Assembly: GCF_012927165.1 (NCBI RefSeq)
Contig: NZ_JABBGA010000005.1
Span: 62,001-126,000 of the forward strand
Source of the DNA: Zoogloea dura
Lineage (GTDB): Bacteria > Pseudomonadota > Gammaproteobacteria > Burkholderiales > Rhodocyclaceae
Reading direction: 5' to 3'
Length of the DNA: 64,000 nucleotides
This document shows, piece by piece, positions 15,628-60,104 of the stretch (positions are counted from its first letter, which is position 1; each line of letters opens with the position of its first letter). The translations under genes were made by a program, and so were the position numbers. The notes under the pieces are model-generated. The model worked only from the letters and a program-made list of their open reading frames with translations, was not told the origin of the DNA and made no database searches.

Positions 15628-15695
15628 TGCTGACGGTCGTCAGCACCATGCCCTGGCAGCCCCGGTCTTCAAGGCTGCAACGCGGTTTGCCGCGT
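15628..15695 (+). ncRNA. three-hairpin RNA element, copy A
   Basis: Hairpin 1 is TGCTGAC-ggtc-GTCAGCA (15628-15645). After a linker with the conserved CATGCCC comes hairpin 2, GCAGCC (15656-15661) with GGCTGC (15673-15678) around an 11-base loop ending in CTTCAA. Hairpin 3 is ACGCGG-tttg-CCGCGT (15680-15695). Four more copies in the window keep the structure with different stem bases. The tail to 15720 (gatcgaacc..cgcttcgcatc) is shared with copy E. It precedes the gene at 15832 by 136 bases. Confidence 0.75.
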
Positions 15696-15772
15696 GGATC
15701 GAACCAGTCCGCTTCGCATCACCACCGCGGACGTGCGTCTTCACGACGCCGATGCTTCTTCCTTCAACCCTT

Positions 15773-15830
15773 CGGGAGATATCCGCTCCCGTCCGGGTGT
15801 GGGCTCCCGGTCCTTCAACCAGGAGAGCCC
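15773..15830 (+). promoter_or_regulatory. leader with alternative pairing, gene at 15832
   Basis: CGGGAG at 15773-15778 can pair with CTCCCG at 15786-15791 or with CTCCCG at 15804-15809. The second C-rich arm otherwise belongs to a stem that hides the ribosome binding site: GGGCTC (15801-15806) with GAGCCC (15825-15830), plus TCCT (15811-15814) with AGGA (15821-15824). The two states exclude each other, as in a translational switch. Confidence 0.55.
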
Positions 15831-15831
15831 C

Positions 15832-16083
15832 ATGTCCCTTGCATTCGCATCGGCACCGCTGAGCGCCGCCCAAGCCCGCACCGAAGCCATTGGCTATCTG
15901 GCCCTGGCCTGCACCGGTAAGCGCCTGTCCCTGCAGGTGCGCCACAGCGCCGCCGGCCACTTCATCGGCACCGCCGATGAAGACGGCCCGGTGTCCCGAG
16001 AGTCCGTCGAGTACTTCCGCTCGCAGCACGCCGCCGAGCACGCCCTGGCAACAGGCCGCTGGCAGCAACGCATCCACCCCTGA
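15832..16083 (+). CDS. small ICE conserved hypothetical protein
   Basis: The 83-residue protein (MSLAFASAPLSAAQARTEAIG...) starts at 15832, 7 bases after AGGAG. It has two beta-like segments, CTGKRLSLQVRHSA and HFIGTADEDGPVSRESVEYF, and a helical tail. It has no signal peptide or known motif. I do not recognise a function. It follows RNA element copy A and its switch-like leader, and is 24 bases upstream of the next gene. Confidence 0.75.
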   Translation: MSLAFASAPLSAAQARTEAIGYLALACTGKRLSLQVRHSAAGHFIGTADEDGPVSRESVEYFRSQHAAEHALATGRWQQRIHP

Positions 16084-16107
16084 CTTCCACTCACAAGGAG
16101 CCATCTC

Positions 16108-16500
16108 ATGAACCAGTCTTTGCCCCAAGACGTACTTGATCAGATCGCCGCGGAAGAGCGGCATTTCGCCGAAGCCCCGCAGGCCTTCTTCGAAGGGTGG
16201 AAGCGCGGTGTGGAAATCGCCGGCGCCGAATGGTTCGGCGACGGCACGCCCGAAGGCCTGCAGCGCGCCACCAGCAAGTGGGATCTGCGCCCCAAGGTGC
16301 TGTTGCTCAACGACGCCCTGGATGTCCTCAGCGGCGGCCAGCGCATGTTCCTGTCCGCGATGGTGAGCTTCTACAACGCCCGCGAAGGCGGCGCGATGCT
16401 CAAGCGCTGCGGATTCGAGGGGCTTTCCGATCTGGGAGGTCTCGATCTGGATCGCCGCAAGGTCATCGCCGATCTGGTGCTGAACTACAGCGGCTGGTGA
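16108..16500 (+). CDS. ICE conserved hypothetical protein
   Basis: The 130-residue protein starts after AAGGAG. It is helical and acidic; the centre PKVLLLNDALDVLSGGQRMFLSAMVSFYNAREGGAMLKRCGF reads like a compact helical bundle, interrupted here only for length. It has no catalytic motif. It is probably cotranscribed with the preceding 83-residue gene. Function unknown. Confidence 0.8.
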   Translation: MNQSLPQDVLDQIAAEERHFAEAPQAFFEGWKRGVEIAGAEWFGDGTPEGLQRATSKWDLRPKVLLLNDALDVLSGGQRMFLSAMVSFYNAREGGAMLKRCGFEGLSDLGGLDLDRRKVIADLVLNYSGW

Positions 16501-16543
16501 TCCCGATTCGCTTGTTCGCCATCCGTTCCTTTTTTCCACCCAC

Positions 16544-16659
16544 GAGGGACATGCGCCTCCTTTCGAGGCGGTGTCCCTCCCTGTTCTCAACATCTCTTCA
16601 ACCACCCGCTGGGGGCTTGCTCCCCAGCCGGGGAATGGGCTCCACTTCCTCTGATGGAG
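16544..16659 (+). promoter_or_regulatory. structured leader of the gene at 16667
   Basis: A strong nested hairpin, GAGGGACA (16544-16551) with TGTCCCTC (16572-16579) around CGCCTC/GAGGCG, is followed by GCTGGGG (16608-16614) with CCCCAGC (16622-16628). CTCC at 16640-16643 can cover the GGAG ribosome binding site at 16656-16659. This is a leader of the same style as those after the three-hairpin elements, but without that element. Confidence 0.5.
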
Positions 16660-16666
16660 AAACCCC

Positions 16667-17383
16667 ATGTCCCCCGATTCCAACCCTTTCCTCCGCGGCT
16701 ACCAGAACCTGCGCATTGATCGCTCCCTGTGCATCACCTACGAGGACGACTGCCCGCCGGTCTGGCACCCGCTGCATCCCAGCCAGGCGCATCTGCCAGA
16801 CGACCAGATCGCGCTCTTCCCCTGCGTCTTCAACAACGACTTCGCTCTGATCACCGAAGGCCAGGACATTCCAGAAGACCTGGAGGCCCAATGCCAGACC
16901 GAGGGCGTGGTGCGCACCGTGGTCTACGCCGTCAGCGGCGACGACTTCGGCCAGCCCGTGCACGTCGGCGACACCTATTCGGAGGAAGCTGCGCGGGAAG
17001 TCGTGTGGCGACTGAGCTTCGAGACGGGCTTCTACAGCCGGTGCTGGGAGATCAGCAGCGCCCATCTCACCCCCGAGGCAGGCCGCTTCCTCGCCGGGTT
17101 GGCGGACATCGCCACACCGAGCGGCTTTCTGTTCGTCGCCTTCCGCATCCCGTACAGCCCCGCGATCGGCGTGAAGCTGATCGCCACCCCCTGGACGGAT
17201 GCGAACCTGCAGCTTGTCGAGGGCATTACCGCCGAAGAGCTGCGGCAGGAGCACCGGGCCAAGGGCATGCCGGAGTCCCTCGTGGAGGTATTGCACCTGG
17301 CCGCACTCGCCAACGTCCGCATGCTGATCTTCGATGCCGATGCGCCGGTGCTGGACGGATTGCCCTTGTACGAAGACGAGTAG
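16667..17383 (+). CDS. ICE conserved hypothetical protein
   Basis: The 238-residue protein is acidic and has mixed alpha/beta character, with segments IALFPCVFNNDFALITEGQ, EVVWRLSFETGFYSRCWEISSAHL and a C-terminal VRMLIFDADAPVLDGLPLYEDE. The C-terminal phrase is common in ICE proteins of unknown function. There is no signal peptide, membrane segment or enzyme motif I can identify. It ends just before a strong terminator, so it is likely a single-gene transcript. Confidence 0.8.
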   Translation: MSPDSNPFLRGYQNLRIDRSLCITYEDDCPPVWHPLHPSQAHLPDDQIALFPCVFNNDFALITEGQDIPEDLEAQCQTEGVVRTVVYAVSGDDFGQPVHVGDTYSEEAAREVVWRLSFETGFYSRCWEISSAHLTPEAGRFLAGLADIATPSGFLFVAFRIPYSPAIGVKLIATPWTDANLQLVEGITAEELRQEHRAKGMPESLVEVLHLAALANVRMLIFDADAPVLDGLPLYEDE

Positions 17384-17390
17384 CACCTTC

Positions 17391-17418
17391 GAGCCCCCAC
17401 CCGGGGCTCTTCCTTTTC
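17391..17418 (+). terminator. rho-independent terminator
   Basis: GAGCCCC (17391-17397) pairs with GGGGCTC (17403-17409) around a 5-base loop and is followed by ttccttttcg. It lies 8 bases after the stop of the 238-residue gene. Confidence 0.75.
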
Positions 17419-17494
17419 GTGGAACGAGGTGGCGACAGGTTGCCGATTCCCGGACGACGGGCACCTGCGCCTGCCGCACGCTTCCCGCATGTTC

Positions 17495-17560
17495 GCTGGC
17501 GTTGCCGGCAGCATGCCCAGGCAGTCGAGACCTTCGAGACTGCGGTGCGGTTCGCCGCGC
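17495..17560 (+). ncRNA. three-hairpin RNA element, copy B
   Basis: Hairpin 1 is GCTGGC-gtt-GCCGGC (17495-17509, one G-U). The linker AGCATGCCCAG follows. Hairpin 2 is GCAGTC (17521-17526) with GACTGC (17538-17543) around an 11-base loop. Hairpin 3 is GTGCGG-ttcg-CCGCGC (17545-17560). Hairpin 2 differs from copies C-E at two pairs, both compensated. Confidence 0.75.
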
Positions 17561-17608
17561 TGGTCGCTTCTTTCGCCGGACGCATGCCGCGTCCATCCAC
17601 CTCACCCT

Positions 17609-17659
17609 CAAGGGACATACCTCCCTTGCGGGCGGGAGTCCCTTGGTTGCCACAAGGAG
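17609..17659 (+). promoter_or_regulatory. leader with alternative pairing, gene at 17666
   Basis: CAAGGGAC at 17609-17616 can pair with TCCCTTG (17622-17628) or with GTCCCTTG (17638-17645). The latter contains CCTTG (17641-17645), which can otherwise pair with CAAGG at 17653-17657 and hide the AAGGAG ribosome binding site (17654-17659). Confidence 0.6.
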
Positions 17660-17665
17660 TCTCTC

Positions 17666-18463
17666 ATGGATACCCAAGCCATCCGCGCACAGATGCCGAC
17701 GCTCGTCCACGGCCATGTGCCTTCCAACGTCCGCAGCTTCAAGTTCAACATCTTCGACGGCCAGCCAAAGGTTTCGACGCTGGGCTTCCACATCGATCCC
17801 AAGCCCTTCGAGGGCAAGGTCATCGCCACCACCGAAGAGGCCATCGTCATCAAGACGGGACGCGCCGAATTCGCGGTGCTCGACCGGGCGCTCGTGACCG
17901 AGGTGCCCGGCGAGGGCGCCAAGGTGCAGGTCGAACCCTACGCCCGACGCCGTTTCGATGGTCTGCGCGCCGACACGCCCGAGGAAGAAACCGCATTCAC
18001 TGCCGACGGCAAGCCGTACACGGTGCAGCGGTTCGTGCTCGGTTCCGCACCGGCGAAGCTGCCAATTCCAGAGGTACGCAGCCCTGAGCTGCAGGAGCTG
18101 ATCCAGCAGATGGAACAGTTGCCCGCACCCGACGGCTACCGGCGCATCACCCATATGCTGGTGGATGCCGGCGCACGGGACTTCACCTGGGTCGATCCGC
18201 TGCCCAAGGACATCATCGCGACGCCACCGGCCATTGGCTTCACGGTGGCCACGGCGAAGTTCCAGGGACGCGTCACCGTGCTGTACGAGCGCGGGCTCGA
18301 CGTGTACGCAGTGGAACTGCACCGCGACGGCGAGCTGGTCGAACGGGTCGATGAGGTGTTCTTCGACTCTCTCGGCGAGACGCTGGAGCGGCGGATCGAC
18401 GACGGGAACTGGCGGCGCATTCGCGTGCAATGCCTGTCCGGTCGCAAGCCTGTCCGGCACTGA
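17666..18463 (+). CDS. ICE conserved hypothetical protein
   Basis: The 265-residue protein starts at the ATG after AAGGAG; frames further upstream run through the RNA leader and are not real. It begins MDTQAIRAQMPTLVHGHVPSNVRSFKFNIFDGQP cut by turns, continues with beta-rich segments (GKVIATTEEAIVIKTGRAEFAVLD) and ends with ITVLYERGLDVYAVELHRDGELV-like strands. No enzyme motif is visible. It is led by RNA element copy B. Function unknown. Confidence 0.8.
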   Translation: MDTQAIRAQMPTLVHGHVPSNVRSFKFNIFDGQPKVSTLGFHIDPKPFEGKVIATTEEAIVIKTGRAEFAVLDRALVTEVPGEGAKVQVEPYARRRFDGLRADTPEEETAFTADGKPYTVQRFVLGSAPAKLPIPEVRSPELQELIQQMEQLPAPDGYRRITHMLVDAGARDFTWVDPLPKDIIATPPAIGFTVATAKFQGRVTVLYERGLDVYAVELHRDGELVERVDEVFFDSLGETLERRIDDGNWRRIRVQCLSGRKPVRH

Positions 18464-18473
18464 CCTCCACGCA

Positions 18474-18498
18474 GCCTCCCGTCCTCTCGGCGGGAGGC
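18474..18498 (+). promoter_or_regulatory. leader hairpin before the DUF3085 gene
   Basis: GCCTCCCG (18474-18481) pairs with CGGGAGGC (18491-18498) around a 9-base loop. It may end the previous transcript or form part of the DUF3085 leader; a conserved DUF3085 RNA motif has been proposed upstream of such genes, but I cannot check the match. Confidence 0.5.
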
Positions 18499-18528
18499 CC
18501 TTCATTCGTTTTCCTGGAGATCACATCC

Positions 18529-18894
18529 ATGTCTGTTCGATTCAAAGGTACCGACCTGCGGCCCGTGCTCGCCGAAGCGGTGGTCAATCAATGTCGTGTC
18601 GTCCTGGTCAAGGACCAGGGCGTGTACTTCCTGGCCGAGCGCGGTGAGCGCAGGCCCGATGGGCGCCAGAAGCTCATCGCCTACGCCGTGCACTGCAATC
18701 CGGATGTCGATGCGTTCGATGATTGGTGGGAGCTGGCGCGCGCCGAGTTCGGTGGCGACGACTTCGGCGAGTTCTTCGATCCGCACGATGGTGTCTTCGC
18801 GCTCATCCTGAGCGGCGAGGGCGACCTCGAGGTGTCCGCGACCGCGACGCACTTGTCATTGCATGCCGTGGCCCCTGCGCACAACGGCAATTGA
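18529..18894 (+). CDS. DUF3085 family protein
   Basis: The 121-residue protein starts at 18529 after TGGAGA. It matches DUF3085: FKGTDLRPVLAEAVVNQC, VVLVKDQGVYFLAERGERR, LIAYAVHCNPDVDAFDDWWELARAEFGGDDF cut by turns, and a C-terminal LSLHAVAP. It is a compact soluble alpha/beta protein of unknown role, restricted to ICEs and plasmids. It ends before a strong terminator. Confidence 0.85.
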   Translation: MSVRFKGTDLRPVLAEAVVNQCRVVLVKDQGVYFLAERGERRPDGRQKLIAYAVHCNPDVDAFDDWWELARAEFGGDDFGEFFDPHDGVFALILSGEGDLEVSATATHLSLHAVAPAHNGN

Positions 18895-18909
18895 CAACCC
18901 CTTCCCCAT

Positions 18910-18935
18910 GCCCCCTTTTCGGGGGCTTCTTTTTG
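18910..18935 (+). terminator. rho-independent terminator after DUF3085
   Basis: GCCCCC (18910-18915) and GGGGGC (18921-18926) form a 6-bp stem with a 5-base loop, followed by ttctttttg. Confidence 0.8.
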
Positions 18936-18954
18936 CTGGCCTACAGTCGTTGTG

Positions 18955-19029
18955 ATGCACTTCTTTGCCTACCAGAACGACCTGTTGGACTCGGCCAAAG
19001 AGTCGATGGCCCGGTTCTGCGACGCCTGA
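18955..19029 (+). pseudogene. 24-codon orphan open frame, possible gene remnant
   Basis: The frame MHFFAYQNDLLDSAKESMAR then FCDA ends at a TGA. The sequence reads like the N-terminus of a helical protein cut short rather than random codons. There is no clear ribosome binding site and no continuation in another frame that I recognise. It lies between the DUF3085 terminator and RNA element copy C. Confidence 0.25.
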
Positions 19030-19117
19030 GTCAGACCCTCGCCAATGCGGGAACCAGATGGTGCCAATTCCGACTGGCGCGGGCATTGACCTCGGGCCAC
19101 GCTTCCCACCATGTTCC

Positions 19118-19186
19118 GCTGACTTCCGTCAGCAGCATGCCCAGGTAGCCACGATCCTCAAGGCTACGACGCAGTTCCGACCGCGT
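19118..19186 (+). ncRNA. three-hairpin RNA element, copy C
   Basis: Hairpin 1 is GCTGAC-ttcc-GTCAGC (19118-19133). The linker AGCATGCCCAG follows. Hairpin 2 is GTAGCC (19145-19150) with GGCTAC (19162-19167), loop ending CCTCAA. Hairpin 3 has ACGC (19169-19172) with GCGT (19183-19186), one A-C mismatch inside. It leads the DUF3577 gene. A DUF3577 RNA motif has been proposed upstream of this gene family; whether it is this element needs a covariance-model search. Confidence 0.75.
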
Positions 19187-19272
19187 TGATCCCACCAGTT
19201 CGCACCGGCGTCCATGCGCGAACGGCCATCGGTTCTCGATGGCGATGCCACCAAGCTGTTCCATCAACCCAC

Positions 19273-19336
19273 GCGGGGGTTCCACACCTTCCCCGCCTGG
19301 GTCGGGTGTGTCTCCGCCTCTTTGTTCTTCAGGAGA
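19273..19336 (+). promoter_or_regulatory. leader with alternative pairing, DUF3577 gene
   Basis: GCGGGG (19273-19278) can pair with CCCCGC (19291-19296) or with CTCCGC (19312-19317, one G-U). The second arm overlaps TCTCC (19311-19315), which can pair with GGAGA (19332-19336) and hide the ribosome binding site. Confidence 0.55.
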
Positions 19337-19342
19337 TTCACC

Positions 19343-19897
19343 ATGACTACTTCCACCGAAAAGTCCTACTTCGATCTGCACATCACCGGCCTCGGGTACC
19401 TCAATCGCATCCGCGAAGTGAAGCCCAAGAAAGGCGATGCGTTCCTGGCCTGCGACATCGCGGCCCTGAACGGTCCCAGCGATGACGTCTCGTACGTGCG
19501 TTTCGACACGCGCGTATCGGGTTCGGAAGCGCAGCACCTGGTTCGTCGCTGCATCGACGCCGTCGAGGCAGAGAAGAAAGTGATGATCGGCTTCCGCCTG
19601 GGCGACCTGTGGACCGACACCTTCACCTATTCCAAGGGGAAGCGTGCCGGCGAGCAGGGTGTGAGCCTCAAGGCACGCCTGCTGTTCGTCAGTTGGATCA
19701 AGGTCGACGGCAAGCTCGTCTACAAGGCCGAATCCAAGCCGATCGAGACCGACGCGCGCGAGCCGGAAGTCCCCGAGGCTTCCGAGGTGCCCGCCGCGCA
19801 GCAAGCCTCGACACCGGAGCCCTCCAGGCCCGCTGCCGAAGCTGCCGACGATGCTGACGCCGATGCCCCCGCTTTGGCCGCTGCCGAGCCGTTCTGA
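19343..19897 (+). CDS. DUF3577 / STY4534 family ICE protein
   Basis: The 184-residue protein begins MTTSTEKSYFDLHITGLGYL and has KKGDAFLACDIAALNG, VRFDTRVSGSEAQHLVRRC and GFRLGDLWTDTFTY, the signature of STY4534/DUF3577. The fold resembles an OB-type or SSB-like domain (inference from the strand pattern). The last ~50 residues are a Pro/Ala/Glu-rich tail. STY4534 proteins are linked with ICE replication. The ATG at 19343 follows CAGGAG. Confidence 0.88.
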   Translation: MTTSTEKSYFDLHITGLGYLNRIREVKPKKGDAFLACDIAALNGPSDDVSYVRFDTRVSGSEAQHLVRRCIDAVEAEKKVMIGFRLGDLWTDTFTYSKGKRAGEQGVSLKARLLFVSWIKVDGKLVYKAESKPIETDAREPEVPEASEVPAAQQASTPEPSRPAAEAADDADADAPALAAAEPF

Positions 19898-19901
19898 TCC
19901 G

Positions 19902-19934
19902 CAAGGCCCCGTTCCCTGGGGCCTTGTCTTCTCT
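19902..19934 (+). terminator. terminator or leader hairpin after DUF3577
   Basis: CAAGGCCCC (19902-19910) pairs with GGGGCCTTG (19918-19926) around 7 bases and is followed by tcttctctt. It is close to the next start (19954), so it may work as an attenuator. Confidence 0.65.
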
Positions 19935-19953
19935 TCGTCAGCAGGAGACCTTC

Positions 19954-20562
19954 ATGATCACCATCCCCGGCCAACTGGCCATCAAGACCATCCACGGCCG
20001 CAACGGCGATTTCAACGTCGGCCGCCTCGCGACCTCCATCGGCGAGTTCGTCGTGAAGAACGCTGAGCTCGACCAGTACGCCGAAGGCAAGTACGAGGGC
20101 GATTTCGCCATTGCCGAGATTCGTCCCTCCACCTACAACGCCAACGGCCGCATGGTCATCGAGATCCGCGCCCTTCTGGGCGGGATGACGCTGTCCAACA
20201 TCGACGCTCTGAGCCGCGACGAAGCCCGCCGGCTGAGTCCGCAGGAAGTCGATCCGATCGACGAGGAAGCGCAGGCACCCGCGCCGGCCGTACCCCAGGC
20301 CAAGCCGAAGGCGAAGCCACGCAACCCGCGCGATCCCCTGGTCGACACCACGCCGTTCGGCAGCGAGCCGACCGCATCCCCCGAGGCCTCGGCCAACGCG
20401 GATGACGCGGCGCTGTTCGGTGCGCTCTGGCCGCTGGGCGAGATCGTCAAGCTCGATGCCACCGTCGATCGCCGCGTCCTGCGTCAGCAGCGCGACCGTC
20501 TCGGTGTGTTGGGCTACGAGTTCGCTCCGCTGTCCCAGGACTGGCATCTCGCCAAGGCCTGA
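19954..20562 (+). CDS. DUF3275 family protein
   Basis: The 202-residue protein begins MITIPGQLAIKTIHGRNGDF and has FNVGRLATSIGEFVVKNAELDQY and GDFAIAEIRPSTYNANGRMVIEIRA in its N-terminal beta-rich half, as in DUF3275. A Pro/Ala linker (about 100-130) leads to a helical tail ALFGALWPLGEIVKLDATVDRRVLR cut here. DUF3275 genes travel with DUF3577 and DUF932 genes in ICEs. Function unknown. The ATG follows CAGGAGA. Confidence 0.85.
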   Translation: MITIPGQLAIKTIHGRNGDFNVGRLATSIGEFVVKNAELDQYAEGKYEGDFAIAEIRPSTYNANGRMVIEIRALLGGMTLSNIDALSRDEARRLSPQEVDPIDEEAQAPAPAVPQAKPKAKPRNPRDPLVDTTPFGSEPTASPEASANADDAALFGALWPLGEIVKLDATVDRRVLRQQRDRLGVLGYEFAPLSQDWHLAKA

Positions 20563-20597
20563 TTCCCAACGCCGCGCCAGCGACGTTCCACCACCCG

Positions 20598-20646
20598 CCG
20601 GGGTTCCTCCCCGGTGGGGCGGGGCTCCGGTCTCTCATCCAAGGAG
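20598..20646 (+). promoter_or_regulatory. leader with alternative pairing, DUF932 gene
   Basis: CCGGGG (20598-20603) can pair with CCCCGG (20609-20614) or with CTCCGG (20625-20630, one G-U). The second arm contains CTCC (20625-20628), which can cover the GGAG ribosome binding site at 20643-20646. No three-hairpin element precedes it. Confidence 0.55.
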
Positions 20647-20652
20647 ATCGTC

Positions 20653-21480
20653 ATGCAACTCGCATCCCGCTTCACTTATCGCTCCCCGGTGCTGCGGTCG
20701 AATCATCCGCTGTCCGATGACCAGATTCGCACCGTAGCGCCGTCCATCTTCGCGGACACCCCGCACGAGAGCCGCTCCGAGCGGTACAGCTACATCCCCA
20801 CGGCGGCAGTGCTGACCGAACTGCGCAAGGAAGGCTTCCAGCCGTTCATGGTGTGCCAGACCCGCGTGCGCCAGGAGGACCGCCGCGACTACACCAAGCA
20901 CATGCTGCGCCTTCGCCATGCGAGCCAGATCAACGGCGCCGAGGCCAACGAGATCATCCTGCTCAATTCGCACGATGGCACCAGCAGCTACCAGATGCTG
21001 GCGGGCATGTTCCGCTTCGTCTGCCAGAACGGTCTGGTGTGCGGCGACACCTTCGCCGACGTGCGCGTGCCTCACAAGGGCAACGTCACCGATCACGTGA
21101 TCGAGGGTGCCTACGAGGTGCTGCATGGCTTCGAGCAGGTGCAGGACTCGCGCGACGCCATGCGTGCCATCACGCTCGACGACGGCGAGGCCGAGGTCTT
21201 CGCCAGATCGGCCCTGGTCCTCAAGTACGACGAACCCGGCAAGACCGTGCCGATCACGGAAGGCCAGATCCTGCGCCCCCGTCGTTTCGACGACAACCAC
21301 GCGGATTTGTGGTCCACGTTCAACCGCATCCAGGAGAACCTCGTCAAAGGCGGTCTGACCGGCCGCACTGCCAACGGGCGCCAGCAGCGCACACGGCCTG
21401 TCCAGGGCATCGACCAGAACGTCCGGCTCAACCGGGCACTCTGGCTGCTCGCGGAAGGCCTGCGTAAGCTGAAAGCCTGA
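20653..21480 (+). CDS. DUF932 family protein
   Basis: The 275-residue protein matches DUF932: TYRSPVLRSNHPLSDDQI, FADTPHESRSERYSYIPTAAVLTELRKEGFQP cut by turns, LRLRHASQ, EIILLNSHDGTSSYQMLAGMFRFVCQNGLVCG and WSTFNRIQENLVKGG. DUF932 proteins are common on plasmids, phages and ICEs; a recombination or anti-restriction role has been suggested but not settled. The ATG follows AAGGAG. Confidence 0.9.
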   Translation: MQLASRFTYRSPVLRSNHPLSDDQIRTVAPSIFADTPHESRSERYSYIPTAAVLTELRKEGFQPFMVCQTRVRQEDRRDYTKHMLRLRHASQINGAEANEIILLNSHDGTSSYQMLAGMFRFVCQNGLVCGDTFADVRVPHKGNVTDHVIEGAYEVLHGFEQVQDSRDAMRAITLDDGEAEVFARSALVLKYDEPGKTVPITEGQILRPRRFDDNHADLWSTFNRIQENLVKGGLTGRTANGRQQRTRPVQGIDQNVRLNRALWLLAEGLRKLKA

Positions 21481-21629
21481 CCTCCAAGCGGATCGTGCCC
21501 ATCGCGGCATGATCCGCTTCTTCTTTGTCGAGGTGCCCGAATGCGCGAGGGCCGATCAACGTGAGCAGTGCGCGCAGCGGTTTGTCGCTCACGTCCCGCT
21601 CGGCAATGAGGCAGGCTATGCCCATGTCC

Positions 21630-21695
21630 GTCGGCGAAGCCGACAGCATGCCCAGGTAGCCAAAACCTTCAAGGCTACGGCGCGTTGCGACGCGT
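21630..21695 (+). ncRNA. three-hairpin RNA element, copy D
   Basis: Hairpin 1 is GTCGGC-gaa-GCCGAC (21630-21644). The linker AGCATGCCCAG follows. Hairpin 2 is GTAGCC (21656-21661) with GGCTAC (21673-21678), loop ending CTTCAA. Hairpin 3 is CGCG (21681-21684) with CGCG (21691-21694). Hairpin 1 shares no strand sequence with copy C yet keeps all six pairs. Confidence 0.75.
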
Positions 21696-21743
21696 AGGTC
21701 GTCCTTCTTTGCCAAGCCGCTTGCGGCGCTTTTTCCACCCCTT

Positions 21744-21792
21744 GGGGCAGTGAGTGCCCCGGCGGGCCGTGCTGCCTCCGATTCCTTCGAGG
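21744..21792 (+). promoter_or_regulatory. leader with alternative pairing, gene at 21801
   Basis: GGGGCAG (21744-21750) can use GGGGCA to pair with TGCCCC (21755-21760), or pair fully with CTGCCTC (21772-21778, one G-U). The second arm contains CCTC (21775-21778), which can cover the GAGG ribosome binding site at 21789-21792. Confidence 0.5.
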
Positions 21793-21800
21793 ACAACACC

Positions 21801-22457
21801 ATGCCTGTCACACATCCCTCCAAGACGCTGTATCGCATCGATGAATGCCCCGACCTCATGGCCGACGGCTGCATCGGTAACGAGAACGGCAACCTGGTCT
21901 TTCTCTCCATCTGGGCGCGCGACACCGCGGTTCAGGAATTCCTCGCTCGCCTGACCCTGGGACGGGATGAACAGGGACTGGACCAGTTCCATCTCATCAC
22001 CGAGCAAGGCGGCAGCGTCCCGGTTTTCGTCGGCAACGTCGAGAATCTGGAAAAGCGCAGCGCGCGCGCCTACCGGCGCACGCTGTTCGGCTCGCTTTCC
22101 AACGTGTGGCTGTTCGACCGCCGTTGCGTGCGTCCCGATAAGGCCAACGCCAGCGCGCTGGCGCTTCTGCCACGCGACTCCACACACCGGCTCGACCGGC
22201 TGTGGTTGCTGGTGCGCGACACCTGCCCGCTGCCGCTGCTCGATCACTGGCGCGACCTCGTGCTGGAGCTGCTGCAGGCGAAGTCGATGCTGACCCGCCT
22301 GCCGTTCGCCCTCGGCCCACTGGAAGGCCACCGACTCGCCATCGACGTGCCGGTGCTGACCCAGACCCTGGGCGGCTTGATCCGCAGTGGGGTGCTCGCC
22401 GCTGAGACGCCTCGGCCCGAGCCTGTCTCAGCGCTGCCGCTCGAAACGGTGGCTTGA
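21801..22457 (+). CDS. ICE conserved hypothetical protein
   Basis: The 218-residue protein begins MPVTHPSKTLYRIDECPDL. It has SIWARDTAVQEFLARLTLG, FHLITEQGGSVPVFVGNVENL, and SLSNVWLFDRRCVRPDKAN, then a Leu-rich C-terminal half. It is soluble with no motif I can assign. Homologues of this type occupy the same position after DUF932 in related ICEs. It is led by RNA element copy D. Function unknown. Confidence 0.8.
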   Translation: MPVTHPSKTLYRIDECPDLMADGCIGNENGNLVFLSIWARDTAVQEFLARLTLGRDEQGLDQFHLITEQGGSVPVFVGNVENLEKRSARAYRRTLFGSLSNVWLFDRRCVRPDKANASALALLPRDSTHRLDRLWLLVRDTCPLPLLDHWRDLVLELLQAKSMLTRLPFALGPLEGHRLAIDVPVLTQTLGGLIRSGVLAAETPRPEPVSALPLETVA

Positions 22458-22523
22458 GACGCTTCCCCATCGGGCATGCCCCGCATGTCCGCTTTCCTTC
22501 ATTCCCGCCTTCAGGAGAATCCC

Positions 22524-23633
22524 ATGGCACTCATGTTTCCGCGGCTCGCCCGCAATTTCGTTAAGAACGGGTATTTCCCCACGGACGAGCCCACGCTCGA
22601 AAGAGCGCTCACTGCGCTGGCCCCTTCTGACGGGCCGATGTGCATTCTCGATCCCTGCGCCGGCGAAGGCGTGGCGATTGCCGAAGTCGCTCACGCCCTC
22701 GGGCGCGAGCAGGTCAAGGCTTTCGCCGTCGAGTACGACGACGAACGCGCCGCACACGCACGCGGACTCGTCGATCGCTGCATCCATGGCGACCTGATGG
22801 ACACGCTGATCTCGCGCCAGACCTTTGGCCTGCTGTGGCTCAACCCGCCCTATGGCGACCTGAGCAAGGACGCCAACGGGAACATCGGCTACCAGGGCCA
22901 GGGTCGGGCCAGGCTGGAGAAGCTGTTCTATCAGCGTGCGCTGCCGCTGCTGCAGTACGGCGGCGTGCTGGTCTTCATCGTGCCGTCCTACGTGCTCGAT
23001 GCCGAACTGGTCGGATGGCTGACGCGCCACTTCGCCGATCTGCGCATCTACCGTGCGGTGGAGACGCAGTTCAAGCAGGTGGTGGTCTTCGGTCGCAGGG
23101 TTCGCCAGCGCGACCAGGCATCGGATTCGGTCAAGGCCACGCGCGGTCTGCTGCTACAGATCGGGCAAGGCGACGCCGAAGCCGAGGAACTGCCGCTGGA
23201 ATGGCCGTTCCTGCCGTACTCGGTCCCCATCAGCCCGGCCGAACCGGAGCACTTCTATCGCGTGACGATGGAACCCGAGCAGTTCGCCGACGAGGTCGGC
23301 CGGCTGCAAGGGCTCTGGCCGGCACTCGATACGCACCTCGGTGCCGCGCAGCAGGCGCTGCGCCCTCCGGCACGGGCCTTGTCGCATTGGCATCTCGCCC
23401 TGGCCCTGGCCGCGGGCGCGATCTCTGGCGTGGTGAGGTCCAGGACCGGGCGCGTGCTCGTCGTCAAAGGTGATACCCACAAGGAGAAGACTCTCCAGAC
23501 GGAATACACCGAACGCGACGACGGCTCCGTGGCCGAGACGCGCATCCTCACCGACAAGTTCGTGCCGGTCATCCGCGCCTGGGACATGACGCCAGGTTCC
23601 CCGACACGGGGAGATGTGCTGACCATCCGCTGA
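22524..23633 (+). CDS. DNA methyltransferase-fold protein, DUF6094 type
   Basis: The 369-residue protein has the SAM-binding motif ILDPCAGEGVAIAEVA (residues ~40-55) and a catalytic NPPY in LLWLNPPYGDLSKDANG (near residue 110), which together indicate an N6-adenine-type methyltransferase fold. FIVPSYVLDAELVGWLTRHFADLRIYR follows, split here by turns. The C-terminal third (lengthy, after ~230) lacks a clear target-recognition domain. No restriction enzyme is next to it, so it may modify ICE DNA or RNA, or protect it from host restriction (inference). The ATG at 22524 follows CAGGAGA. Confidence 0.82.
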   Translation: MALMFPRLARNFVKNGYFPTDEPTLERALTALAPSDGPMCILDPCAGEGVAIAEVAHALGREQVKAFAVEYDDERAAHARGLVDRCIHGDLMDTLISRQTFGLLWLNPPYGDLSKDANGNIGYQGQGRARLEKLFYQRALPLLQYGGVLVFIVPSYVLDAELVGWLTRHFADLRIYRAVETQFKQVVVFGRRVRQRDQASDSVKATRGLLLQIGQGDAEAEELPLEWPFLPYSVPISPAEPEHFYRVTMEPEQFADEVGRLQGLWPALDTHLGAAQQALRPPARALSHWHLALALAAGAISGVVRSRTGRVLVVKGDTHKEKTLQTEYTERDDGSVAETRILTDKFVPVIRAWDMTPGSPTRGDVLTIR

Positions 23634-23675
23634 TCGCTGTTCCCTGACGGTTCGCCGTCGCTTTCATCCACCCAC

Positions 23676-23724
23676 CGGGGTCATGTCGCCCCGATGGGGT
23701 GCCGTGGCCCCTTCTTCCAGAAGG
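23676..23724 (+). promoter_or_regulatory. leader with alternative pairing, gene at 23735
   Basis: GGGGTCA (23677-23683) can pair with TGGCCCC (23705-23711), or, as CGGGG (23676-23680), with CCCCG (23689-23693). The distal arm overlaps CCTTCT (23710-23715), which can pair with AGAAGG (23719-23724) and hide the ribosome binding site. Confidence 0.55.
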
Positions 23725-23734
23725 AGAGCCCACC

Positions 23735-45946: not shown

Positions 45947-48900
45947 ACGTAGCCTCGCTCGTCGGCGCAGTCGCCGCCGCCTATCTCCGCGAAGAACTCC
46001 AGGCCGATACGGGCGCAGTGCAGTCGACTGCGCGGTATGTGCTCAATCTCAGCGCCGAACAGGTCGCAGCCGTCGCACGCGCCGTGCTCGCGGATCCGTT
46101 TCTCAAAGAGCGCATCGACATCAAGCTACCGACCTCGCTTGTGAGCGGCCAAGGCCTACCCGATGAGACTCTGACGACCGAAAGCGCCACCTTCTATCGA
46201 AACGCTGATTGTCCGAAGGCCGCCTATCTACTTGCCGAACACGAACATGGTGAAGACGCCTCGATTCGTGAAATTGCGAAACTTGGCCCCCCTGAGCTAC
46301 TGGAGCGCATCGACCTTTGGGTTCGCGAGGCCTCAAAAGGCCTGCCTATCGCCCAGGAACAGCAAAAATGGTGGGAAAAAGCCCTGACTGGGCTCCGTGA
46401 TCTTCGAATCGTCTCGATCGACCGCTTTGCCGTCTACATCTTGCGCACCCGCCGAGAAAACGAGGAAGCGGGTCGCCCCATCATCGATGCGCTGGGCGCC
46501 GCAATGCCGGCACTACGTCTTCCTAACGACCCTGCGTGCTTCGGAAGCCTCAAAGAGCGCCAGCGCGGACATGCATCTGCATGGAAGCAGCAATTCAACA
46601 ACGCTCACAAGAGGCGATCCGGGCTGCTCCTCAAGCAGACCTCAAGCCAGCTCCTGCTCAGCGAAGAAGACCTGCGCAACGCGTTCGAAAAGGTTGCGCA
46701 CCAGATCCCGAATGCCTGTCATCCCGCGATCGAAGCCTTTATCGGGGCGCCCAGCGGCTGGAACGCCCAGGCCGAAGCTTTAGCAGAACAAGATTGGGAG
46801 CAAATAAAGCCGATCTTCGATGGCCTGCAGCGTGAGAAATTCAACCTTGGCAAAAACACACTTGAATACTTCAGTGAGCTAGAAGAAGACAAGCTTGAGG
46901 ATGAGGAGCGGGAATATCTCAAGCTCTTGTCCAAGCGGTCGGAAAAAATCGATGAAGACACGGATTTTTATGAAGCCCACCGTAGCGAAATCAAAGACGA
47001 CAAGAAGCTGAAGTCTGCTTGGGATCGCTTCGTATATGGCCGCCCCATCGAAACAACCGACTTCATCGCCGGCATTTGCGCGGTTATGGAGCCACTTTAC
47101 AACCGGATGCCGCCAGGCGATCAGCGCAAGCTGAAAATCAAATGCGAATCCGCGACTAAGAGAGACCTGCGATCTCTCAACTATGAAGCAGGTCTCTATT
47201 TCGCGCACCGCTACGCCGGCCTGCGTCGTCTGTTCGGCGGGATGATCGATTGGGATGTCGGCGATCTCTTCGAATTCGACAAGCTTGTCTCCGACTGGAA
47301 AAAGGGCGACAAGGCCAAGAACAAGCTCAACACGTCCACCGCCAAACCGGCGCTTCAGCTCAAATTCGTCGTCGAATTGGAGACAACGACCGACGGGGAC
47401 AGCATTCAAAAGCATTCGACGCAGCTGATCTGGCGCTACGACCCCTCATGCGTCGCGAGCCAATTGGTCGACGACTGGGGGCGGTTGACCCAAAATCCCT
47501 TCACGGCCTGCCGCACACAGCGCGAATTCACCGCTGACAAATCGATCGATTTGGCCAACGTAAAGACGTTCATGCCGGCGTTCGACCGTGATCGCGGCTC
47601 ATTCGTGCCAGCGGCCAAACCTGACCGGAATCTCGACGCGCTTTGGCGCAACAATGTCAAAGAGTGCGTCGATCAAGCTTATCTCTCCGCCCAGGATGCC
47701 AAGACATTGGGTGAGGCCTTTACAGCCTTTGAAAGTGCCTACAAGCTCGCAATCGTCGACTTCTCGACGAAAGGAGGCGGCGCCGACTCCGTACTCAATC
47801 AGACGACAGCGTACGCTGCGCTGCTCGAAACCGTCCTAACACTCGCCAAGGGCGATCGCAATCGCGACAAGCTGCTCAAGCCACTGCTCATGATTGGTGT
47901 CGCGCCGATCGACGGCGGCAGGCCGGCGGCCGTCGTCGCGCCCTGGCATCCGATGCGTCTGGTCGCCATATGGCGAAAGTCTAAGCTTGCCGTCGATCTC
48001 GTCAGTCAGGTTCTCGGCAGCATCGAGGCAGAGGGCGATCCAAAGCTGTTCTTCCGGGATATCGCTCATGATTTCGAGCACGCGCTATACCCTGAGATTG
48101 TGTCGATCTGGACGAATGACGGCCCACAATTCCTTACGGTAAGCGACGTGGTCGCCGACTACAGTCTGCATGAACCTCCCGTCGCCGACCCCAAAGGCGA
48201 GAACGACACCAATGAAAGCCCAGCTGAGGGCGGCTCCTGCGTCCATGACCTCGTCAAGCGCTATCTCGCCCTGCAACCGCACGAACGCTCCAACCTGTCG
48301 GTCGTACTGTTTAATTGCGATTCCGCGCGGCTGCCTCAGGCGGTCGTGGCGAAGATCGGCGGCATGCAGGATGACGAGGACGACGTTCGATGCCAAGTTC
48401 TGCTGCGCCACATCGAAAGCCAGAAGCTTCGTAACATCTATTGCTCGATCTTGAGCTCCGAAGCTACGGCAGACGCCTATAGCGCGAGTGAAGCTTCTCA
48501 AGACTTCATGGCCCGCCTGCGGATCTCGGTGATTGCTGACCAGGCGCCGCCGCCCAACCCCAAAGACGGCCATCCATACGACATCGTCTTTTCGCAAGAT
48601 GTCATATCGCGTCACGCGCAACTTGAATGGTATCTCGAACAAGGCGAACCAGCCGACATTCGCAAGCTGTTGCCGTCACGCTGGTCGCGCCGCCGGCCGG
48701 CCGCCAGAGACGACCTTAAGTCAGCGGTCTTCCTATGCTGCCCGGTACAAAGCGCCGAGGGCTGGGCCTATATCTCCGCCGTCGCGAGCATTTTCAAAGG
48801 CGACCGCGATGAATCGACATCCAAACGGTTTTTGCCCGTTCGCCAGCTCGACTTTGCCGACGGCCGGACCAAGCGCATCTTCGAAGAGACCCACGACCTA

Positions 48901-52066: not shown

Positions 52067-52089
52067 CCACCACGAAAGGTTGAATCGCC

Positions 52090-52455: not shown

Positions 52456-52467
52456 GGGCCGGCACCG

Positions 52468-56412: not shown

Positions 56413-59300
56413 TGACCTGGTCCGTTCCCTTCCTGCAGGCGCGCCCGGCCGAAACCCCAGCCGGCGCAGAGGCAGATGCCGACGACGCATGGACGCGGCA
56501 CGTGTCGATGCTGGCTACGCATGGCATCAGCGAGCCCGGCAGTGCGCTGGCCGTCCGCCGCCGCAAGCCGGCCACCGAGGCGGACGCCCAGGCGCTCTAC
56601 GGCGTGGCCCCGTCCTTCGCCGATCTGTTGCCCTGGGTGGAATACCTGAACGAGTCGAAGTGCATGCTGCTGGAAGACGGCCAGTCGGTCGCCGCGTTCT
56701 TTGAATTGGCGCCGGTCGGCACCGAGGGTCGCGAACTGGCCTGGCTGTGGCAGGCGCGCGATGCGCTGGAGAACGCGCTGCAAGACTCCTTCGACGAACT
56801 CGACGAGAACCCCTGGGTGGTCCAGCTCTACGCCCAGGACGAGGCGAACTGGGACGGCTATCTGCGCGGGCTGGCCAGCTACGTGCGGCCACGCGCCCGG
56901 GGCAGCGCCTTCAGCGAATTCTACCTGCGCTTCTTCGCCCACCACCTGCGCGCGATCGCCAAGCCCGGCGGCCTGTTCGAGGACACCACGGTGACACGCC
57001 TGCCATGGCGCGGCCAAGTCCGGCGCGTGCGCATGGTGGTCTACCGGCGTACCCCGACCACCGCGTCGTCGCGGCGCGGCCAGTCCCCCGGGCAGGCCCT
57101 GGCCACGATCTGCGACCGGCTCGCCGGCGGGCTCGCGAACGCGGGCGTGAAGGCGCGGCGCATGAACGCCGCCGACATCCACGACTGGCTGTTGCGCTGG
57201 TTCAATCCCCACCCGACGCTGCTGGGGCCGAGCGCCGAGGATCGGGAGCGCTTCTATGCGCTGACCCGCTATCCCGAGGAGACGGAAGAGGGTGAGATCG
57301 AGCTGGCCAGCGGCGACTTCGCGCAACGCCTGTTCTTCGGCCAGCCGGGCTCGGACGTGGGCAACGGCACTTGGCTCTTCGACGGCATGCCACACCGGGT
57401 GATCGTGATGGACCGCCTGCGCATGCCGCCGCCAACGGGCCACATCACCGGCGAGACCCGCAAGGGCGGTGATGCGGTCAATGCGCTGTTCGACCAGATG
57501 CCGGAAGACACGGTGATGTGCCTCACGCTGGTCGCCACGCCCCAGGACGTGCTGGAAGCGTACCTGAACCACCTGAGCAGGAAGTCGGTCGGCGAGACGC
57601 TCGCTTCGGAGCAGACCCGCCAGGACGTGCAGCACGCGCGCAGCCTGATCGGCAGCGCGCACAAGCTCTATCGCGGGGCGCTGGCGTTCTTCCTGCGCGG
57701 GCGCGATCTGGCGCAGCTCGACGCCCGCGGCCTGCAACTGGTCAATGTCATGCTCAATGCTGGTCTACAGCCGGTGCGCGAGGAAGACGAGGTGGCGCCG
57801 CTCAACAGCTACCTGCGCTGGCTGCCCTGCATCTTCGACCCGGCCCTCGACAGGCGCCAGTGGTACACCCAGCTCATGTTCGTGCAGCACGCCGCGAACC
57901 TCGCGCCGGTCTGGGGCCGCAGCCAGGGGACGGGGCATCCGGGCATCACCTTCTTCAACCGCGGCGGCGGACCGATCACCTTCGATCCCTTGAATCGCCT
58001 CGACCGGCAGATGAACGCGCACCTGTTCCTGTTCGGCCCCACCGGCTCGGGCAAGAGCGCCACGCTCAACAACATCCTGAACCAGGTGACGGCGATCTAC
58101 CGGCCGCGCCTCTTCATCGTCGAGGCGGGCAACAGCTTCGGCCTCTTCGGCGACTTCGCGGCGCGGCTGGGCCTCACGGTGCATCGCGTAAAGCTCGCAC
58201 CCGGCGCAGGGGTCAGCCTCGCCCCGTTCGCCGACGCACACCGCCTGGTGGAAACGCCCAGCCAGGTGCAGACGCTGGATGCTGATGACCTGGACGAAGA
58301 CCGCGACGAGGTAGCGCAGGTCGCCGATGCCGACGAGCAGCGCGACGTGCTGGGCGAACTGGAGATTACCGCGCGGCTGATGATCACCGGTGGCGAGGAC
58401 AAGGAAGAGGCTCGCATGACGCGCGCCGACCGCAGCCTGATCCGCCAGTGCATCCTCGATGCGTCTCAGCGCTGCGTGGCGGAGAAGCGCACCGTGCTCA
58501 CGCGCGACGTGCGCGACGCGCTGCGCGAACGCGCCCGCGATGCGACGCTGCCGGAGGCACGGCGCACCCGGCTGCTGGAGATGGCCGACGCCATGGACAT
58601 GTTCTGCCAGGGTGTCGACGGCGAGATGTTCGACCGTCCCGGCACACCCTGGCCCGAGGCCGATATCACGATCGTGGACCTGGCGACCTTCGCCCGCGAG
58701 GGCTACAACGCCCAGCTCTCGATTGCCTACATCAGCCTCATCAACTCGGTGAACAACATCGCCGAACGCGATCAGTTCCTCGGACGACCGATCATCAATG
58801 TCACCGACGAGGGCCACATCATCACCAAGAACCCGCTGCTCGCGCCCTACGTGGTCAAGATCACCAAGATGTGGCGCAAGCTCGGCGCCTGGTACTGGCT
58901 GGCGACCCAGAACATCGACGACCTGCCCAAGGCGGCCGAACCGATGCTCAACATGATCGAGTGGTGGATCTGCCTCTCCATGCCCCCGGACGAGGTGGAG
59001 AAGATCGCGCGCTTCCGCGAGCTGAACCCGGCGCAGAAGGCGCTGATGCTCTCCGCCCGCAAGGAGGCCGGCAAATTTAGCGAAGGCGTGATCCTCTCGA
59101 AGTCGATGGAGGTGCTGTTCCGCGCGGTGCCGCCCAGTCTGTACCTAGCGCTGGCCCAAACCGAGCCGGAGGAGAAGGCCGAGCGCTACCAATTGATGCA
59201 GCAGTACGGCATCGGCGAGCTGGATGCCGCCTTCAAAGTGGCCGAGAAAATCGACCATGCCCGCGGCATCGAGTCGCTGGCGCTCGATACGCTGGCGTGA
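56412..59300 (+). CDS. conjugative transfer ATPase, VirB4/TraC-like (TIGR03744)
   Basis: The 962-residue protein has an N-terminal VirB4-type domain, a Walker A motif LFGPTGSGKSATLNN (GPTGSGKS at 542-549), a long insertion with acidic DEDRDEVAQVADADEQRD, and C-terminal motifs including DITIVDLATFAREGYN, INVTDEGHIITKN and WYWLATQNIDDLPK. It is the assembly ATPase of the mating channel. Full length for the family. Confidence 0.95.
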   Translation: MTWSVPFLQARPAETPAGAEADADDAWTRHVSMLATHGISEPGSALAVRRRKPATEADAQALYGVAPSFADLLPWVEYLNESKCMLLEDGQSVAAFFELAPVGTEGRELAWLWQARDALENALQDSFDELDENPWVVQLYAQDEANWDGYLRGLASYVRPRARGSAFSEFYLRFFAHHLRAIAKPGGLFEDTTVTRLPWRGQVRRVRMVVYRRTPTTASSRRGQSPGQALATICDRLAGGLANAGVKARRMNAADIHDWLLRWFNPHPTLLGPSAEDRERFYALTRYPEETEEGEIELASGDFAQRLFFGQPGSDVGNGTWLFDGMPHRVIVMDRLRMPPPTGHITGETRKGGDAVNALFDQMPEDTVMCLTLVATPQDVLEAYLNHLSRKSVGETLASEQTRQDVQHARSLIGSAHKLYRGALAFFLRGRDLAQLDARGLQLVNVMLNAGLQPVREEDEVAPLNSYLRWLPCIFDPALDRRQWYTQLMFVQHAANLAPVWGRSQGTGHPGITFFNRGGGPITFDPLNRLDRQMNAHLFLFGPTGSGKSATLNNILNQVTAIYRPRLFIVEAGNSFGLFGDFAARLGLTVHRVKLAPGAGVSLAPFADAHRLVETPSQVQTLDADDLDEDRDEVAQVADADEQRDVLGELEITARLMITGGEDKEEARMTRADRSLIRQCILDASQRCVAEKRTVLTRDVRDALRERARDATLPEARRTRLLEMADAMDMFCQGVDGEMFDRPGTPWPEADITIVDLATFAREGYNAQLSIAYISLINSVNNIAERDQFLGRPIINVTDEGHIITKNPLLAPYVVKITKMWRKLGAWYWLATQNIDDLPKAAEPMLNMIEWWICLSMPPDEVEKIARFRELNPAQKALMLSARKEAGKFSEGVILSKSMEVLFRAVPPSLYLALAQTEPEEKAERYQLMQQYGIGELDAAFKVAEKIDHARGIESLALDTLA

Positions 59301-59313
59301 CGGGGAGGCGGCA

Positions 59314-60066
59314 ATGCACCTGCCCGGATTCGTACGATCCCGCCGTTTCATTCTGCTCGCGTTGCTGACAGCCGCCTTGCTTCTGCTCGCCGCCTTGTCC
59401 TTCCTGCGCCCGCGTGCCACGGCACAAGTTGAAACCCGCCCTCTAAGCTCCACAGAGACGGTGCCGTCTGTACCTTCACCACCATCCAGGCCACCCTGGC
59501 GCTATGGCCGGCCCGATGCGCGTTTCACGGTGGTTGAGTATGCCGATCTGGAGTGTCCGTTCTGTCGAACCTATTTCCCGGTACTCAAGCACTGGATCGA
59601 TGGACATCCAGAAATGAGCTGGCAATGGCATCACCTGCCGCTGGCCATGCATGAACCGGCGGCCTCCGCCGAGGCACGCCTGGTCGAGTGCATCGGTGAG
59701 GCCGGCGGCCCCGCCGCGTTCTGGCAGGCCGTAGACTGGGTCTACGCGAACACGCGTGGCGACGGGCAGGGGCTGCCCGAAGGGCTGCGCTATCCCGACC
59801 TCACGCCTGCCGCGCAGCAGTGTCTCGCCAGTGATCGGCCCGACGCGGTGATCCACGCCCAGGTTGAGGAGGCGGTAAAGAACGGCGTTTCCGCTACGCC
59901 GGCGCTGCAACTACGTGACCGGGAGACCGGCAAGGCTCTCTTGTTGCACGGCTCCGTCGAGGGCGATGCTCTGCTGTCTGCTCTCGATCTGCTCACTGCG
60001 AGCGGCACCACCGGCTTGCCATCGAAGGAAATGCCAGCCGACTCTGTCGGCGACATGCCCAGGTAG
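59314..60066 (+). CDS. DsbC/DsbA-like periplasmic thioredoxin protein
   Basis: The 250-residue protein has an uncleaved or signal-anchor N-terminus (FILLALLTAALLLLAALSFL) and a DsbA-type fold with active site DLECPFCRTYFPVLK (CPFC) and a cis-Pro loop VSATPALQL. It probably makes disulfides in cysteine-rich secretion proteins such as TIGR03755/03756. Its last 10 codons overlap RNA element copy E, an unusual coding/structure overlap. Confidence 0.9.
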   Translation: MHLPGFVRSRRFILLALLTAALLLLAALSFLRPRATAQVETRPLSSTETVPSVPSPPSRPPWRYGRPDARFTVVEYADLECPFCRTYFPVLKHWIDGHPEMSWQWHHLPLAMHEPAASAEARLVECIGEAGGPAAFWQAVDWVYANTRGDGQGLPEGLRYPDLTPAAQQCLASDRPDAVIHAQVEEAVKNGVSATPALQLRDRETGKALLLHGSVEGDALLSALDLLTASGTTGLPSKEMPADSVGDMPR

Positions 60067-60104
60067 CCATCGATCTTCAAGGCTACGGTGCGGCTCGACC
60101 GCAC
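60037..60104 (+). ncRNA. three-hairpin RNA element, copy E
   Basis: Hairpin 1 is GCCGAC-tct-GTCGGC (60037-60051). The linker GACATGCCCAG follows. Hairpin 2 is GTAGCC (60063-60068) with GGCTAC (60081-60086), 12-base loop ending CTTCAA. Hairpin 3 is GTGCGG (60088-60093) with CCGCAC (60099-60104). Hairpin 1 lies inside the end of the thioredoxin gene. It leads radC, 34-45 kb from the other copies, which shows the element is mobile or selected rather than a local duplication. Confidence 0.78.

Follow-up and report, generated by a model that had tools for sequence, protein, structure and literature searches.

The window analysed here, a 64,000-nt stretch of DNA from Zoogloea dura, contains the core of an ICE, with genes for a topoisomerase, DUF3085, DUF3577/STY4534, DUF3275, DUF932, TraD/TraG-like, TraC and RadC proteins. 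A cmscan search of this 64-kb window with the 4227 families of Rfam 15 identified five copies of radC RNA (Rfam RF01754), all on the forward strand, at 15611-15755, 17478-17635, 19100-19248, 21613-21757 and 60020-60169. Each match was full-length (model positions 1-149 of 149), with scores of 85.6-126.4 bits against a gathering score of 40 and E-values of 1.5e-14 to 8e-24, and a scan of the whole host genome gave the same five matches and none besides at E up to 0.001. The gene context of the family was also present: RadC at 60261 and DUF3577 at 19343 are encoded downstream of copies. An earlier note on this DNA had reported five dispersed copies of a three-hairpin element and suggested that they might be the DUF3577 RNA motif. 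The five copies are there, the starts that it gave corresponding to the inner P1 stem (15628 lies one base ahead of the stem). The proposed identity did not hold, since the Infernal search with Rfam named RF01754 for all five; neither DUF3577 nor DUF3085 RNA gave a match in the window at the gathering score or at E ≤1, a negative that applies to the models Rfam 15 contains. No second family reached its gathering score in the window, and at E ≤1 only one sub-threshold snoRNA match was added.

As folded here, a complete element consists of five helices (P1-P5) and two pseudoknot pairings (PK1 and PK2), and all features listed are on the forward strand. Copy B (15621-15755, 115.8 bits) has P1 at 15621-15650, P2 at 15656-15661/15673-15678, PK1 at 15663-15667/15697-15701, P3 at 15679-15695, P4 at 15707-15712/15727-15732, P5 at 15735-15749 and PK2 at 15716-15720/15751-15755. 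The gene that it leads (15832-16083) encodes 83 aa without a Pfam or NCBIfam family and is by position the homologue of ICEclc ORF88400. Copy D (17488-17627, 99.2 bits) lies just downstream of a terminator-like hairpin (17391-17409) and has P1, P2 (17521-17526/17538-17543), PK1 (17529-17532/17562-17565), P3 (17544-17561), P4 (17578-17583/17589-17594) and a hairpin at 17610-17627, with no PK2 seen; its gene (17666-18463), homologous by position to ICEclc ORF84835, shows similarity to KfrB below the Pfam cut-off. Copy C (19110-19249, 121.3 bits) also has a terminator-like hairpin upstream (18910-18926) and contains P1, P2 (19145-19150/19162-19167), PK1 (19153-19156/19188-19191), P3 (19168-19187), P4 (19198-19203/19218-19223), P5 (19225-19243) and PK2 (19207-19212/19244-19249). 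It leads the gene for a DUF3577/STY4534-family ICE replication protein (19343-19897; PF12101, 3.4e-61; NF040584). Within unit C, another terminator-like hairpin (19901-19927) is situated between the DUF3577 and DUF3275 genes.

Copy E (21623-21760, 85.6 bits), preceded by a terminator-like hairpin at 21486-21519, has P1, P2 (21656-21661/21673-21678), PK1 (21665-21667/21697-21699), P3 (21679-21695), P4 (21714-21720/21723-21731) followed by a U run, and a hairpin at 21744-21760, again with no PK2 seen; the gene downstream (21801-22457) encodes 218 aa without a family. Copy A (60031-60169, 126.4 bits) leads radC (60261-60755; PF04002, 3.3e-42) and has P1, P2 (60063-60068/60081-60086), PK1 (60071-60075/60106-60110), P3 (60087-60105), P4 (60116-60121/60137-60142), P5 (60144-60163) and PK2 (60125-60130/60164-60169). 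The upstream CDS (59224-60066) runs with its last codons into this copy; within 60019-60066, P1 encodes the final residues EMPADSVGDMPR and the stop of that gene, whose product shows thioredoxin-like similarity far below the cut-off. Because the stop codon lies inside P2, translation of the upstream gene could open the element. Terminator-like hairpins were in slight excess only (8 found versus 4.6 +/- 2.4 in shuffles). By eye, a different hairpin, ACCCnnCGGGG..CCCCGnnGGGU, recurs at 16600-16666, at 20590-20650 and in the leaders after copies B-E, where it is located between the element and the ribosome-binding site; it is also found ahead of genes without an element and is perhaps a second ICE leader structure.

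The fold was derived from homologous elements. We aligned 25 diverse copies, built a covariance model that contained nested helices only, and searched it against 100 sources (231 matches), then six more sources, and then 46 further loci (73 matches). The best 150 of the 231 matches and all 73 were used as alignment input, leaving out those from the six-source search; the 223 rows represented 170 distinct sequences, which were reduced to 65 cluster representatives. The D and E copies among the 231 scored below 71 bits and so fell outside the best 150.

In the 65 representatives, the fold is P1 followed by two tandem H-type pseudoknots, P2/P3/PK1 and P4/P5/PK2, built on one plan: a stem, a loop strand that pairs downstream, and a hairpin inserted before its pairing partner. 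Stems that vary in sequence while remaining paired had been noticed in the five copies, and in 100 distinct homologues (which include window copies A, B and C and exclude D and E) 95.9% of cells were paired, with changes on both sides at 25 of 43 pairs. This is far above chance: neither pairing value was reached in any of 500 shuffles, and slid registers all stayed below 49% paired. In the same 100 sequences, both parts of P1, P2 and P3 were paired in 96.6-99.7% of cells, the P1 counts excluding one MAFFT alignment in which P1 slipped by one base, while P4 was paired in all cells, one of its pairs showing 38 double changes, and had variants such as GUUCGC/GCGAAC, GUCCGC/GCGGAC, GUGCGA/UCGCAC and GAUCGC/GCGAUC. 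RNAalifold, unaided, recovered P2-P5 and did not recover P1.

In PK1, the P2 loop pairs with the bases directly after P3 (GAUC/GAUC, GGUC/GACC, GAACC/GGUUC, GGGUU/AACCC and others), and in PK2 the P4 loop pairs with those that follow P5 (GCAUCC/GGAUGC, GGCAUC/GAUGCC, GCUUCU/AGAAGC, GCACUC/GAGUGC and others). Pairing was tested in 64 of the 65 representatives for PK1 and in 61 for PK2 (those with a P4 loop of 9-19 nt). PK1 of at least 4 bp could form in 63/64, compared with 43.1 when partners were shuffled, and PK2 of at least 5 bp in 59/61, compared with 34.3; with Watson-Crick pairs only, the values were 56/64 versus 21.8 and 53/61 versus 22.9. The helices were represented by 33 distinct sequences for PK1 and 18 for PK2. 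Since both lie outside the nested model, the alignment did not favour their pairing, and because PK2 was mis-registered between classes in two alignments, its claim is based on this register-free test.

Copies D and E (17477 and 21612) lie outside the set of 65 representatives. Both retain P1-P3 with a short PK1, and they have a different 3' half. Of the three-hairpin description in the earlier note, hairpins 1-3 exist, together with the quoted hairpin-2 stems and the loop end (C/T)TC(A/G)A, but the fold supported by covariation comprises five helices and two pseudoknots, from which these two copies deviate in the 3' half. The constant spacing extends from P1 to PK1 and is lost 3' of PK1. P4, PK1 and PK2 covary strongly, and none of them is part of the structure that cmscan prints for RF01754, although Rfam may hold pseudoknots that this output omits. 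The printed structure instead has a closing 3-bp helix (117-119/147-149), which only 32 of 59 representatives could form and which is incompatible with P4 and PK2. Its poor fit questions that helix of the model and not the membership of these elements in RF01754.

Pairing could in principle be selected in DNA. Promoters of the Frpo type fold the template strand, and a structure formed by the transferred single strand, as in the Frpo promoter of the F plasmid, might serve early expression in the recipient. However, P2-P5 of the 65 representatives contain 137 G-U against 22 A-C combinations; as a template-DNA structure would show the reverse, this asymmetry argues that the sense strand is under selection for pairing, as for RNA. 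Many elements also follow sequence resembling a duplex promoter (see below). We therefore regard the DNA reading as very unlikely, even though the element resides in a conjugative element and its discoverers weighed single-stranded DNA for the STAXI motif, where they nevertheless judged RNA likelier (PMC2864571). Together, covariation in homologues and placement bear out the view that a selected RNA structure stands ahead of several ICE genes.

Such a double pseudoknot might bind a protein, a small RNA or a metabolite and switch translation or transcription of the operon behind it, so that the units would form one post-transcriptional regulon. Several copies occur per ICE, ahead of unrelated genes; an unpaired GCCCAGG is present in 34/65 representatives and a P2 loop ending in UUCAA or UUCGA in 35/65; and the discoverers' table rates radC RNA 'Y' as an RNA, 'y' as cis-regulatory and '?' as a riboswitch (PMC2864571). 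On the other hand, the unpaired strings are exact in only about half of the 65 representatives, and no ligand or partner is known. We consider a regulated switch doubtful, yet nearly as likely as the protection or processing of 5' ends discussed below.

The 5' end of the motif coincides with promoter-like sequence, for which two designs were observed among the 65 representatives. In the first, TTGAC begins 20-25 nt before motif position 1 (22/65; shuffled mean 0.26, max 3), and a -10-like hexamer occupies motif positions 1-6. The second, which covers most of the others, has a box, AAnGCGG-N-TGCCGATT, and a CATCCT/CACGCT-like hexamer without a -35 element; the box was located at -35 to -37 in 26 of 41 representatives without TTGAC (shuffled 2.8, max 10). 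The CAUG or CGUG of P1 was found in 42 of the 65 representatives, and in 39 of these it starts 5 nt downstream of the hexamer. If transcription initiates 7 nt after the hexamer, a start predicted from the hexamer itself, the 5' end would fall inside CAUG. On such sequence comparisons, motif positions 1-6 resemble a -10 box, and we infer an mRNA start at P1.

In the window, the box (AAnGCGG...TGCnnATT, a putative activator site) was found on the forward strand upstream of copies B (15553-15586, PWM 19.0 bits), D (17421-17454, 22.0 bits) and C (19042-19075, 22.6 bits), compared with 13.7 bits for the best match in three shuffled windows. The matrix was derived from 24 sites, excluding those of the window and of locus L125 and including homologues of copies B, C and D, and the matches at these three copies are therefore not independent. 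The box of copy E (21556-21589, 9.8 bits) scored under the shuffled best. Hexamers on the same strand are CATCCT for copy B (15610-15615), whose position is conserved in homologues, CACGCT for copies D (17477-17482) and C (19098-19103), and CAGGCT for copy E (21612-21617). A sigma-70 scan of single copies was not significant for most copies of the ICEclc type, and no sigma-70 promoter passed within window positions 15000-22600, where the reading of box plus hexamer rests on their fixed spacing. Neither box nor -10 hexamer was found upstream of copy A, which sits at a gene junction; 5'-terminal placement is thus not universal.

Additional box matches were seen in the window. At 10982-11075, a box (14.0 bits) and TTGACTGACAGCC...TGCCGATGCT precede the gene for a PFL_4669 ICE protein without a radC element, an apparent homologue of the ICEclc PinR promoter. 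The fourth-best match (48371-48404, 16.3 bits) is inside a long ORF, also without an element, and is either a chance match or an unmapped promoter. In Pseudomonadaceae, a variant of radC RNA at four loci (L135, L136, L137 and L142) combines TTGACC with an A/T-rich stretch where the -10 would be. An upstream ORF beginning at the P1 AUG was rejected as a general feature: its M-X-X-UGA frame, present in many copies, varies with the sequence of the stem and disappears with the P1 stems GCUGGC, GUCGGC and GCUGUC. For copy D, this AUG is out of register with the KfrB-like gene in 5 of the 13 loci that have it, and its frame contains no stop in any of the 15 loci listed, which leaves some room for an upstream-ORF reading.

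We examined the occurrence of RF01754 and found it in 8 of 60 near relatives (7 above the cut-off) and in 2 of 369 genomes sampled across the class, the host genome being included in both counts, and in 133 of 398 Pseudomonadaceae. A locus in Aromatoleum tolulyticum had 100% protein identity to the window for the compared genes found there. In the 80 named loci with DUF3577 (the best 80 of 371), an element was present at most 450 nt before the DUF3577 gene in all but one (L054). Of the 59 loci with the gene led by copy E, 14 had element E, all with DUF932, and among the 45 lacking the element DUF932 occurred in one locus only (L059). In Pseudomonadaceae, the element was also observed ahead of other small genes and of a transposase-like gene, first genes there having been called automatically and several being spurious; at L137, a DUF3987 gene starts ~550 nt downstream of the element. 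Element C is immediately preceded, in 25 loci, by 0.8-9.3 kb in which none of the compared window genes had a match, as would be expected if the element were a cassette-border repeat that provides homology for exchange of gene blocks and whose RNA fold is secondary. We think this highly improbable, because covariation keeps pairing rather than sequence, which is adverse to homology.

A studied element for comparison is ICEclc. One genome, G584, contains both printed ICEclc promoter strings and is read as that of Pseudomonas knackmussii B13; it had two near-identical sets of radC RNA matches. When anchored at position 102,305 of the paper, tblastn ORF ends agreed within ~30 nt for ORF91884, 88400, 84835, 81655 and 58432, whereas the inrR start in the ICEclc table is ~170 nt off from the position of the printed -10 on this anchor. 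ICEclc has the same core genes and gene order as the window and five radC elements. In our mapping, four of the five directly precede ORF88400, 84835, 81655 and 58432, each of which is the first gene of a published transcript (PMC2892462). The fifth lies between ORF89746 and ORF89247, a placement by position only, as the ORF end there mismatches that name. Promoters and published transcripts thus lend support to the shared regulon suggested in the earlier note, at their own level.

The predicted 5' end is 224 nt upstream of ORF81655, near a weak primer-extension product reported ~250 nt upstream (PMC2892462). Three of nine bimodal ICEclc promoters carry the element (88400, 81655 and 58432), and that of ORF58432 was described as weak or not independent (PMC9286271), in line with the lack of promoter-like sequence at copy A. 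Of the three regions that had more reads yet lacked a bimodal reporter, two carry the element (84835 and 89247) and the third, 73676, has the box only. The UR84835 reporter was at background and UR89247 somewhat above it, and the authors considered that fragments were possibly too short or suspected processing (PMC9286271). Reads upstream of ORF81655 were the highest, yet its reporter resembled that of Pint, a contrast from which the authors suggested post-transcriptional mechanisms (PMC9286271); the reporter fragment may or may not include the element.

A box scan over 60 kb of ICEclc detected eight places that scored higher than the shuffles (12.3); five of these have no element, suggesting that promoter and RNA are separable layers. 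Independent matches were those at inrR, ORF67231, topB, ORF73676 and after radC. The best score was upstream of ORF84835, despite the reported absence of promoter activity in that fragment. At PinR, the box is 35-68 nt upstream of the start expected from the printed -10. The ICEclc authors reported that their 27-bp promoter motif does not occur outside their promoters and is 152 bp away from the start of PinR, so that it is probably distinct from our box.

The RNA put is a processive antiterminator and was used as a comparison. A put-like leader would modify RNA polymerase and thereby carry transcription of long ICE operons past the terminator-like hairpins within them, and the location of the element near the transcript start, together with the hairpin at 19901-19927 inside unit C, would suit such a role. 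One element does lead a 14.3-kb ICEclc transcript, but other element-led units are short (2.3 kb; PMC2892462), and the inrR-topB transcript had no radC element in our scan. Antitermination is therefore unlikely in our judgement.

We consider it probable that the five copies are cis-acting radC RNA leaders of core operons in an ICEclc-type ICE that act after transcription starts, with mRNA 5'-end stability or processing as the leading candidate for their effect. Outside copy A, the element would be fused to the promoter, its first six positions forming the -10 box, and the mRNA would begin in or beside the CAUG of P1. Fused to a promoter or placed at a gene junction, as in copy A, the element should act on RNA after initiation. 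The 5'-terminal helix and the compact double pseudoknot may shield 5' ends from entry of RppH and RNase E, an internal element such as copy A may be a processing site, and each ICE gene block would thereby acquire its own mRNA lifetime. RppH prefers single-stranded 5' ends, and both RppH and RNase E disfavour a helix located at the first nucleotide or close to it (PMC3997798). Because of this preference, the high reads at ORF81655 with an ordinary reporter, and the position of copy A at a transcript boundary without a clear promoter, protection or processing is our first choice of mechanism, although taken on its own we propose it tentatively. More speculatively still, radC RNA may be a modular 5' leader of repeated insert-type pseudoknots fused to ICE operon promoters, through which the transfer-competence programme would have a post-transcriptional layer of its own that defines or protects 5' ends, with STAXI maybe as a second branch.

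These results tie an orphan Rfam entry to promoter-like sites and published ICEclc transcripts, with pseudoknots that can be tested. As reporters and mutants of ICEclc are available in Pseudomonas, the timing and stability of conjugative-element mRNAs are open to direct experiment. They also call for caution in using RF01754, whose first six positions may be promoter DNA.

Literature searches on the names of radC RNA gave the discovery and folding-method papers and no functional study, and wider searches gave none among the matches listed; radC did not occur in the main texts of the ICEclc papers searched, nor was it mentioned in the available part of a dRNA-seq paper (PMC4603805). The family itself was described by Weinberg et al. 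2010 (PMC2864571). It shares sequence and hairpins 1-3 with the elements reported here, occurs in Proteobacteria and has radC among its led genes; unlike the fold presented here, its printed cmscan structure lacks P4, PK1 and PK2, and its first six positions are promoter-like rather than RNA-like. Rivas 2020 (CaCoFold) noted that database structures of radC miss covarying pairs (PMC7657543), and the structure of RF01754 drawn in that work may already include P4, PK1 and PK2. The STAXI motif (RF01728) resembles radC RNA in its tandem pseudoknots and occurs near ssb, topoisomerase, antirestriction and integrase genes (PMC2864571); in contrast to RF01754, its model had no match in the window at the gathering score or at E ≤1. 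The transfer-competence regulon of ICEclc in P. knackmussii B13 has the same core genes in the same order, and four of its five elements stand before the first genes of transcripts, although its 27-bp promoter motif may well differ from the box found here. Thus, the family was already known, and CaCoFold had flagged missing pairs in 2020, whereas the double pseudoknot, the promoter overlap and the ICEclc map are the additions made here.
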